The notes beneath the pieces are model-generated. The model saw nothing but the letters and a program-made list of their open reading frames with translations. It was not told the DNA's origin and searched no databases. DNA of 64,000 nucleotides. Origin: Candidatus Xiphinematobacter sp. Idaho Grape. GTDB taxonomy: Bacteria; Verrucomicrobiota; Verrucomicrobiia; Chthoniobacterales; Xiphinematobacteraceae. Shown here piece after piece: positions 54,733 to 57,580 of the stretch. Position 1 is the first letter of the stretch; every line of letters begins with the position of its first letter. The position numbers and the translations under genes were made by a program. Location: positions 62,001 through 126,000 of the forward strand of contig NZ_CP012665.1 of the NCBI RefSeq assembly GCF_001318295.1, in the 5' to 3' direction.

Positions 54733-55696
54733 GAATCATGGGCTTCCATTCTGAATAGAAGCTAAGGTTCATTTCATCCGGCTAAGAAAAGACCGTTCGA
54801 GGTAATTGATCATCTATCCCTGGAGGGTTTTTGTATCATTACCGTTTGGCTTTTCTCCCCGCCTCATTCGGTTTCTCGAGAAGCCTGCGTGGCCTAAACA
54901 CAACAGGAATACACTCATACAGGCGCAATACGAATCCTGATAGCATCAGGAATTTAGTTCAGTTCTTCACTCCTAGCAGAGAGCAGGCGAGAGGCTACAT
55001 AGCTGGCACCCTTCCTCAGGGAGAACCCAACCCCACTCGCAGTACTATTCTCCCCTGAAGCCATAGTCATGTTATTCCCTTCGAAGTAGAGCATCAATGC
55101 TACCCTAGATACTCTACATAAAGGTTTATATAGACTATAAAGAACACTGGCGGATCTGCCCTTAGGGCCGGAGGTTATTTTCCCATTTAGTAGCAGATTA
55201 AATTCTCAGTGTGTCACACTCTACACTAGGAAGTGCCTTCGGAAAGAATACACATATGCTGGACAGAACTTAGCCATCCATCTAGATCCTCTTTCCATCA
55301 GTGATGGTACTGGGATCCACTTGCTAAGCTAATACGATCACCTGGTTCTAGGTACTAGCACAGGGGGTATAGCCTTTTTGCAGGAGAGTTGCAAACGTTT
55401 CTTCTGAAAGGTTAAGTGCTAATGAAGTCTGCCTGCCCCCATGCATGGGGCGTACAGGCAGTTTTTTGGAAGTAAGACGAGAAAATCCTGCAGGAAGCAT
55501 GCTCTGGTGTAGGACTGCACCGCACTGGGCATGGCCACAATCCATCCAAGAGACAACTTTTGGTAAACCCCCCATCAGCATTAAGTTTAGGGTGTCAGCT
55601 CTTCATAATTTATGGTGAAAACTATGCCTCATTTATGATTCCCGTCGATGGGGGCTATTGGTTATTTTCTCGCAGCTTCCTCTCCTATTTATTAGG
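54733..55696. other. Gap with a terminator but no recognised gene (ruvB-hpf)
   Basis: About 960 bp, the longest gap here. It holds a strong plus-strand terminator-like hairpin (55429-55467, listed separately) although no gene precedes it for 700 bp. A 77-codon minus-strand frame (55348-55581) passes through that hairpin and is probably accidental. I looked for RNase P RNA, tmRNA and 6S signatures and saw none. Confidence 0.55.
55429..55467 (+). terminator. Intrinsic terminator without an obvious upstream gene
   Basis: CTGCCTG (55429-55435) pairs with CAGGCAG (55455-55461); inside, CCCCATG/CATGGGG (55437-55450) can extend the structure. Six T residues follow (55462-55467). This is a good rho-independent terminator on the plus strand, roughly 700 bp after ruvB, so it may end a small RNA or a long ruvB 3' tail. 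Confidence 0.65.
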
Positions 55697-56059
55697 ATGC
55701 GTTTTATGCACATTCATCTCAGTCCTCGGCATCTAGTTCTAACTGCCGCTATTCATTCGTATGTAGCAAACAAAATTTCTCACTTAGAAGAGATGACAGA
55801 GCAGATCCTAGCAGCTCATGTGGTTCTTCTCCATGATGAGACACGAACGAAAAAATATGTAATTAAGGTTCACCTAGCAATTCCAGGTCCAGACATTTAC
55901 GCAGAAGATGCTGAGGACGACCTTTATGCTGCTATCGATAAGGTCTCCACAAAGCTAGCAAGGCTTTTGCGTAAGCGTAAGACAAAAATCCAAGAACGGA
56001 AGAAGCACATTTCACAACTTGCAAAGGAGAGCAGTAAACGTGGATATGGAAGACGGTAG
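55697..56059 (+). CDS. hpf: Ribosome hibernation-promoting factor (HPF/YfiA family, short form)
   Basis: Binds the 30S decoding centre and silences ribosomes in stationary phase. Short-form HPF of about 120 residues: IHLSPRHLVLTAAIHSYV at the start, beta-strand HVVLLHDETRTKKYVIKV (about 40-57), EDAEDDLYAAIDKV, and a basic tail KRKTKIQERKK. The frame is open to 55658; the ATG at 55697 is preferred because an AGGAT lies just upstream, and the ATG at 55706 is also possible. It fits with RsfS, a second ribosome silencer in this window. Confidence 0.9.
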   Translation: MRFMHIHLSPRHLVLTAAIHSYVANKISHLEEMTEQILAAHVVLLHDETRTKKYVIKVHLAIPGPDIYAEDAEDDLYAAIDKVSTKLARLLRKRKTKIQERKKHISQLAKESSKRGYGRR

Positions 56060-56692
56060 AGTAATGACAGCTCTTTAGAAGTGGGTATCAGCCAAAAGTT
56101 TTCAGGTGACCTTGCAGTTCATACTTCGTCCTCTAACTGGAGAGGGAGGATGGCACGAGTATAACCACAACAGCTTCGCCAAGGTTAGCCTGCAGATTTT
56201 CTTTTCAAGTCTTCAGCGCGAGGAATCTGCTGATGATCACGGTCTCGTTATGGCGGTCCGTACTTGCTGAGAAGTAGCTCGCAGCAGAGATTACCTTCCG
56301 GGATTACTTTGTTGCTTTCCCTATAGAAATCTCTTGAATGAAAGGGCTTGGACGTATTCGCAGGGTGACTACCAATGGAGAATTTTGTACTCTGGCATTT
56401 ACTATACTGGATGCCTGGTTTCCTTGACTCTCTGTGGTGGAAGGGGTTGCTTTTACCTCTTCCCCTCTCCCAGAGAAAAGACGGCAGTATTCTACTTCTA
56501 CTGCATCGTGCTAGATGAAGACAAAAAACAAATATTCTGCCTAAAATGAAGGGAACACGAGAGTTTGTTGCAGACCAAAGGGCAGACCTCAACAAGTCAG
56601 AGGTCTATTCAGACTATAGATCTAATAGGTTTTTGCTTCTTCCAAGAATCTAAACCATGGGAAGTAAAAAGTGAAAAGTAGGAGCTGAAGTC
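56060..56692. other. Gap without a gene (hpf-pheA)
   Basis: 633 bp. No convincing frame, RNA or terminator. A 115-codon minus-strand frame (56248-56595) has no family similarity and looks accidental. Confidence 0.6.
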
Positions 56693-57580
56693 ATGGCTGA
56701 CACAATGCCCATTATCCAACAGAAGGCAGCCTCTGCTGCAGAAACTCCCGTTAAATTGGAAACGCTGAGAGAACAAATTGATGCAGTAGATGCACAGATT
56801 TTATCACTTTTAAACAAACGTGTGACTATGGTTCGCAGGATAGGAGAGCTAAAGCAGCAGGAAGGTCTTCCCATCTACGCTCCCGATAGGGAGGAGAAAT
56901 TGCTTCGCCACTTAGTAGAAAAAAACAATAGCGCTTTATCTGCAGCATCGGTTCATGCTATCTATCGGGAGATTATCTCTGCCTGCCGCGCCCTGGAAAA
57001 GGAGGTAGTGGTGGCCTGTTTAGGACTTGCAGCTGGAATAACTCATCAGGCGGCCTGTCGTCGTTTTGGTTCTACTGTGCAATATGCCTTTTGTCAGGAA
57101 GCTGCGGAGGTGTTCAGACGAGTTACTAAAAATGAAGCGGATTGTGGAGTAATCCCTATCGCTACTGGTACTACTGAAGTAAGAAGTTCAGTAGCAGCAC
57201 AACTATTAAGTGACTTAGCAAGGACTGAGCTAAGCATATGTGCCGAAATCTCACTAGATTCTAGGAATGGGGGGAGTGATCGGTTTTTAGTCCTCAATCG
57301 CGTTCCGACCCTCCCTTCGGGAGCGGATCGCACACTTGTCTTGCTTCGCTTGGAAAACAAACCTGGAGCACTAGCTACCTTAGAGTCTTTCAAGGAGCAT
57401 TCCACTAGTTTTACCCCGTTAGCCAGTCAATCATCCACTGAGAAGAACGGTACTGGAGACCTTTTCTTCCTAATGGAAGCAGAAGGGCACAGCACGCAGC
57501 TACAAGCTAGCAACTCCCTTCTAGAGCTATCCAGATACTGTCTGACTGTAAAAATTCTAGGCAGCTATCCTAGGCAATAG
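56693..57580 (+). CDS. pheA: Chorismate mutase with a decayed prephenate dehydratase domain and ACT domain
   Basis: Bifunctional PheA turns chorismate into phenylpyruvate. The AroQ chorismate mutase domain (22-103) looks intact: LREQIDAVDAQILSLL, KRVTMVRRIGELK. The dehydratase part (106-203) is shortened by roughly 70-80 residues between CAEISL and RFLVL, and its motifs have changed: GPxGT reads GLAAG (111-115), the ENS of PIENSTEG reads ATG (PIATGTTE, 155-162), and the catalytic TRF reads DRF (196-198). The ACT domain (211-293) lacks ESRP (LASQSS). It ends LGSYPRQ like normal PheA. The open frame implies it is still used, perhaps as a mutase only. The total of 295 residues compares with about 360-390. 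Confidence 0.85.
   Translation: MADTMPIIQQKAASAAETPVKLETLREQIDAVDAQILSLLNKRVTMVRRIGELKQQEGLPIYAPDREEKLLRHLVEKNNSALSAASVHAIYREIISACRALEKEVVVACLGLAAGITHQAACRRFGSTVQYAFCQEAAEVFRRVTKNEADCGVIPIATGTTEVRSSVAAQLLSDLARTELSICAEISLDSRNGGSDRFLVLNRVPTLPSGADRTLVLLRLENKPGALATLESFKEHSTSFTPLASQSSTEKNGTGDLFFLMEAEGHSTQLQASNSLLELSRYCLTVKILGSYPRQ

Follow-up and report, generated by a model that had tools for sequence, protein, structure and literature searches.

The gene at 56693-57580 (+ strand) of the window, that is, of the 64,000-nucleotide stretch at positions 62001-126000 of the single 915,884-base contig of 'Candidatus Xiphinematobacter' (CP012665, which lives as an endosymbiont in the nematode Xiphinema americanum; PMC4607532), very probably encodes the organism's chorismate mutase (CM), as a monofunctional variant of PheA whose prephenate dehydratase (PDT) step passed to a stand-alone gene long before symbiosis. 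We assign this reading a probability of roughly 0.86. Under it, the stand-alone PDT would have taken over the second reaction; the active site would then have disappeared from the PDT part of PheA, followed by the inserted lobe 2 through excision, leaving the order CM - lobe 1 - ACT. Chorismate would be converted to prephenate on the window protein, and prephenate either to phenylpyruvate on the stand-alone PDT (genome 43581-44108) or to tyrosine via TyrA. The architecture of the protein, the loss of its PDT residues, the second PDT, the in-place orthology, the repeated excision and the purifying selection were all computed directly.

The open frame spans 295 amino acids, in agreement with the initial annotation, and a shorter start is possible at the ATG at 56708. 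The delimitation of the gene is based on this frame, on Pfam and on a 31-member alignment; all features given for it below lie on the + strand. An AroQ-type CM domain occupies residues 22-103 (56756-57001), and was identified by Pfam's CM_2, complete over residues 25-103 (profile positions 1-80 of 80, E = 3e-25), by NCBIfam's TIGR01807 (CM_P2), matched above its cut-off, and by mapping onto E. coli PheA. The earlier description of this domain as intact therefore holds. The PDT profile (PF00800) is matched over positions 1-78 of 181 only (residues 107-188). This match, the alignments and an AlphaFold model define the first part of PDT lobe 1 (residues 107-189, 57011-57259), in which catalytic residues are lost. 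It is followed by the junction (residues 190-194, 57260-57274), which is the site of the excised lobe 2 (about 78 columns) when short and full-length forms are aligned, and by the return strand of lobe 1 (residues 195-202, 57275-57298, SDRFLVLN), the former TRF motif, which is a strand in the model and is also placed by the alignment. The ACT domain (residues 212-293, 57326-57571) was recognized by the fold order of the model and by mapping onto E. coli PheA. A survey of 117 genomes of the order was performed, in which the short form was defined as a PDT match ending near position 78; PF01842 (ACT) is matched by 27 of the 31 short-form members, the window protein being among those without a match.

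In an alignment with full-length PheA proteins from this order, 78 columns are missing between residues 189 and 195 of the window protein, which confirms the initial estimate of a PDT domain 70-80 residues short. No stops, frameshifts or repeats were seen at the junction in the window gene. A deletion between short repeats was considered as the excision route and rejected, given that no repeats remain at the junction. Judging from the alignments, the full second PDT lobe and all PDT catalytic residues are gone from this gene.

When mapped onto E. coli PheA, the CM residues R11, R28, K39, R51 and E52 are retained as R26, R43, K54, R66 and E67. Q88 is replaced by E102, a change also present in 31 of 33 full-length relatives, and the position of Ser84 is occupied by C98, being mostly Ser or Ala in relatives. 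Within the PDT part, N160 is changed to E and T278 to D, and S208 and Q215 are deleted; these four (E. coli PheA numbering) are the residues which we take to be catalytic in PDT. Three motifs had been reported as changed, and two of these changes stand: the T/S of the first glycine motif (GPxGT) is G in the window protein, and TRF has lost its threonine to the aspartate just mentioned. The third, from ENS to ATG, depends on the alignment, as ATGT is an insertion and ENS aligns with TEV. The ACT domain retains GAL and reads ASQS at the position of ESRP, whose absence had been pointed out. Hence, of the features of a P-protein, the complete AroQ-type CM domain with its catalytic residues is present, while the two-lobed PDT domain, the PDT catalytic residues and the pair of GAL and ESRP are not. 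From these residues, the window protein should be a mutase, is predicted to be active as CM, and cannot be a dehydratase of known type.

A PDT domain consists of two lobes, the second being inserted within the first. The AlphaFold model, built with 31 sequences (pLDDT 85, pTM 0.80), presents three CM helices, one alpha/beta lobe and an ACT fold, the latter with beta-alpha-beta-beta-alpha-beta order. The CM part has the all-helical CM_2 fold over its full length (5gmu_B, TMt 0.93). Among PDB entries, the model matches 7alz_A best, a structure from a crystal of the PDT GqqA in which residues 86-170 were lost by proteolysis and the remaining domains are unchanged, with a Calpha rmsd of 0.76 A (PMC8192741). 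Given that the window gene lost the same piece as the GqqA crystal, a folded remainder is expected in its protein.

When the genome was searched for a second dehydratase, the only other PDT match, at genome 43581-44108, was a stand-alone PDT-ACT protein of 298 residues, which presents intact GPVGT, ENSS and NVTRF motifs and lies outside the window, 75 kb from the window gene. No other type II (AroQ) CM and no AroH-type CM were found in the genome, the window gene being the only CM found; TyrA was found. Since an intact stand-alone PDT is encoded outside the window, the phenylalanine route looks complete, and the possibility of a missing route was discarded. In view of the same gene, the initial suggestion that prephenate goes to tyrosine or to the host is not supported. 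In the relevant passages of published analyses, these symbionts are described as having conserved the pathways to phenylalanine and tyrosine, with no mention of the gene split.

The short form was found in 31 of the 117 genomes, spanning at least five families of the order and including free-living-sized genomes of 1.4-5.1 Mb. A full stand-alone PDT accompanies it in 30 of the 31, a count which ignores genome kinship; the exception, G092, is a draft that is 90% complete and divided into 190 contigs. The other families of the order mostly have one full PheA of about 360 residues. Short forms also have conserved residues of their own, namely the Cys of ADCGVVP (30 of 31) and, in most members, KFGSSVRY, G(A)L and SRP. 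The occurrence of the short form in free-living-sized relatives indicates that the PDT loss predates symbiosis. For the same reason, symbiont gene decay was ruled out, and host dependence, to which the shortening had initially been related, does not account for it. A sequencing or assembly error, such as the deletion at 57255-57275 that had been raised as a possibility, was ruled out by the presence of the same junction in 30 other genomes. As a separate observation, near-complete genomes of families f8 and f13/g20 (e.g., G010, G020 and G049) have no PF00800 match and mostly no PF01817 match; these are aromatic auxotrophs or users of unrelated enzymes.

Full and short forms share one locus: in 76 of 80 named loci, they follow scpB directly. 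According to tblastn synteny, the gene order in relatives is hpf-scpA-scpB-short form-(trpC). In the window, this analysis places an hpf-like gene upstream of the short form (55658-56059, + strand), followed by the interval that holds scpA-scpB in relatives (56060-56692, + strand), where no match was obtained. ScpB has no match anywhere in the organism's genome. Given that only hpf and the short form remain at the locus, the short form has outlasted its scpA-scpB neighbours. Chromosome condensation in this organism must consequently run without ScpB or via another system. At another locus (L099:5000-7213), the short form adjoins the stand-alone PDT on the same strand, behind scpA-scpB, which is a possible trace of the second PDT's arrival.

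Outside the order, short forms were found in G344, G362, G155, G310 and G331, and further ones at loci L096, L099 and L101. In a tree built without the excised columns, the short forms need three changes among well-placed rows, and their grouping as one clade was rejected with p-AU = 6.9e-8, very long branches being excluded from the AU test. A single origin of all short forms was ruled out by this result. These values indicate that lobe 2 was removed on three or more occasions, always close to one boundary, the excision count ranging from 3 to 6 with L169, L176, L178 and L180 as long branches. Active-site loss seems to have come earlier than the lobe excision, since the full-length PheA forms of family f18, where a second PDT is present, already carry N160H, S208G and T278A while retaining lobe 2. 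A sister genome, G344, carries the short form. A full-length PheA beside a second PDT was also seen at L215 (G087), with SPCAT for GPxGT and YAHPQ for YSHPQ, and this protein may stand at the start of the same decay.

The ESRP motif of the window gene (codons 57419-57436, residues 243-248) has lost its arginine. According to the alignment, so has that of the stand-alone PDT (L001:1156-2052, - strand), and the loss from both proteins is common to the two symbiont genomes, G000 and G002. The motif reads SQS or SQP in the short form and SHP in the stand-alone PDT. The arginine is retained in same-genus sequences of G003 and G001 (in G001, PDT only), and SRP is retained by both proteins in most free-living-sized relatives. 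A change in the regulatory domain of Buchnera PheA was read as phenylalanine desensitisation, according to the passages that cite it (Jimenez et al. 2000, cited in PMC5054487 and PMC2649895). By analogy, the arginine losses are suggestive of a similar desensitisation in the nematode symbiont, two symbiont genomes being too little to claim it.

Pairwise dN/dS, computed for pairs with unsaturated dS and ignoring kinship, ranges from 0.02 to 0.28 in lobe 1 and from 0 to 0.26 in ACT, and is below 0.3 in every domain where computable. In the symbiont pair, the values are 0.05 for CM, 0.28 for lobe 1 and 0.15 for ACT. These values reflect purifying selection, and support the earlier proposal that the gene is under selection with CM as the part kept. 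With an open frame and dN/dS far from 1, the window gene does not have the traits of a pseudogene. Among short forms, mean identity is 48% in lobe 1 against 66% in CM, while in full forms lobe 1 is about as conserved as CM; the lower conservation of lobe 1 in short forms fits a domain freed from catalysis, not from folding.

The PDT half and ACT could still be a dying remnant, with CM alone under selection and the rest tolerated as baggage. Of the three domains, lobe 1 is the one with the highest dN/dS between the two symbionts, and the symbiont ACT is without some key residues. Moreover, CM-only and ACT-less relatives exist: CM alone is retained in G017, G385 and G027, and G035 has kept CM and part of lobe 1 and lost ACT. 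Nevertheless, all computable pairs give dN/dS values far below 1 for lobe 1 and ACT, down to 0.02 in free-living-sized relatives, and the short form persists in at least five families with conserved residues of its own, so we consider a remnant unlikely. With less confidence than for the CM itself, we believe that lobe 1 and ACT persist as a folded unit serving CM, either for dimerisation or for allosteric control, although their being dispensable in the lineages just named counts against this. The remaining half may plausibly have a regulatory role, and we suspect, again with less confidence, that this regulation is weakened in the symbiont. A more specific version is proposed tentatively, and we lean slightly against it: lobe 1 and ACT would be a phenylalanine sensor on CM. 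The single-lobe PheA would have arisen three or more times in Verrucomicrobiota and seemingly once more in Alphaproteobacteria (PRK06034), always following the appearance of a second PDT, and the sensor arginine would then have been lost in both symbiont ACT proteins. If so, this double loss would open the phenylalanine supply to the host.

It is also conceivable, and in our view quite unlikely, that the short protein serves the stand-alone PDT as a non-catalytic partner, forming mixed dimers via lobe 1 and ACT with a shared phenylalanine switch. The near-constant co-occurrence of the two proteins, their ACT domains of the type that dimerises in known PDTs, the adjoining genes in one lineage (L099) and the loss of the ACT arginine from both proteins in both symbiont genomes agree with such pairing, but 75 kb separate the two genes in the window genome and the stand-alone PDT is complete by itself. 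Finally, the dehydratase-like lobe may have gained a catalytic or metal-binding role. In 27 of the order's 31 short forms, Cys109 and Cys151 stand where aromatic residues are otherwise conserved, in addition to the shared Cys183 (codons 57017-57019, 57143-57145 and 57239-57241, + strand, from the short-form alignment). However, the Cys109 site is a tyrosine in most independently shortened forms, and no known motif or structural match supports such a role, which makes it very improbable.

With the window gene read as a monofunctional PheA variant, the relatives would form a replicated natural series, from active PheA through active-site loss and the removal of one lobe to CM alone in some lines, the lost step being covered by a second gene. 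This bears on the persistence of pseudo-enzyme domains and on the communication between CM and ACT. It also corrects the annotation of a conserved family that can be mistaken for a broken PheA, and adds a second nutritional symbiont in which phenylalanine feedback may be lost. In the literature searched, we found no report on such a protein among work on CM pseudoenzymes and CM domain loss, and no paper naming PRK06034.

In comparison with E. coli PheA, a CM/PDT P-protein with ACT, the window protein shares the domain order CM-PDT-ACT and the CM catalytic residues, yet it is without PDT lobe 2, the PDT catalytic residues and ESRP, and has 295 instead of 386 amino acids. The same remainder of lobe 1 and ACT is seen in Komagataeibacter europaeus GqqA (7ALZ), where the loss is a crystallisation accident in an active PDT, whereas in the window protein the shortened form is specified by the gene itself, as a fusion to CM, and evolution has arrived at it repeatedly. 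The alphaproteobacterial PRK06034 (NF004695-NF004698), labelled 'hypothetical protein' or 'chorismate mutase', has in Azospirillum a CM, a lobe-1-like part with the same gap and an ACT-like end (GDDRTLL...VGGY). The PRK06034-like Azospirillum protein has 27% identity to a relative of the window protein, and its gene adjoins hisC, not scpB. The Azospirillum proteins that score best against PRK06034 (L219 and L220) can be aligned with the short form over almost their whole length, and show the same gap; they score below the PRK06034 cut-off, and only their CM passes the Pfam cut-off, with no PDT or ACT. The window protein itself obtained 56.6 bits against PRK06034, below the curated cut-off of 349. 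The Azospirillum proteins are probably a separate arrival at the same design. Like the window organism, Buchnera is a nutritional symbiont in which the part of ACT that binds phenylalanine is reported to have changed, but there a single bifunctional protein was changed, whereas here the ESRP arginine was lost in two separate proteins.
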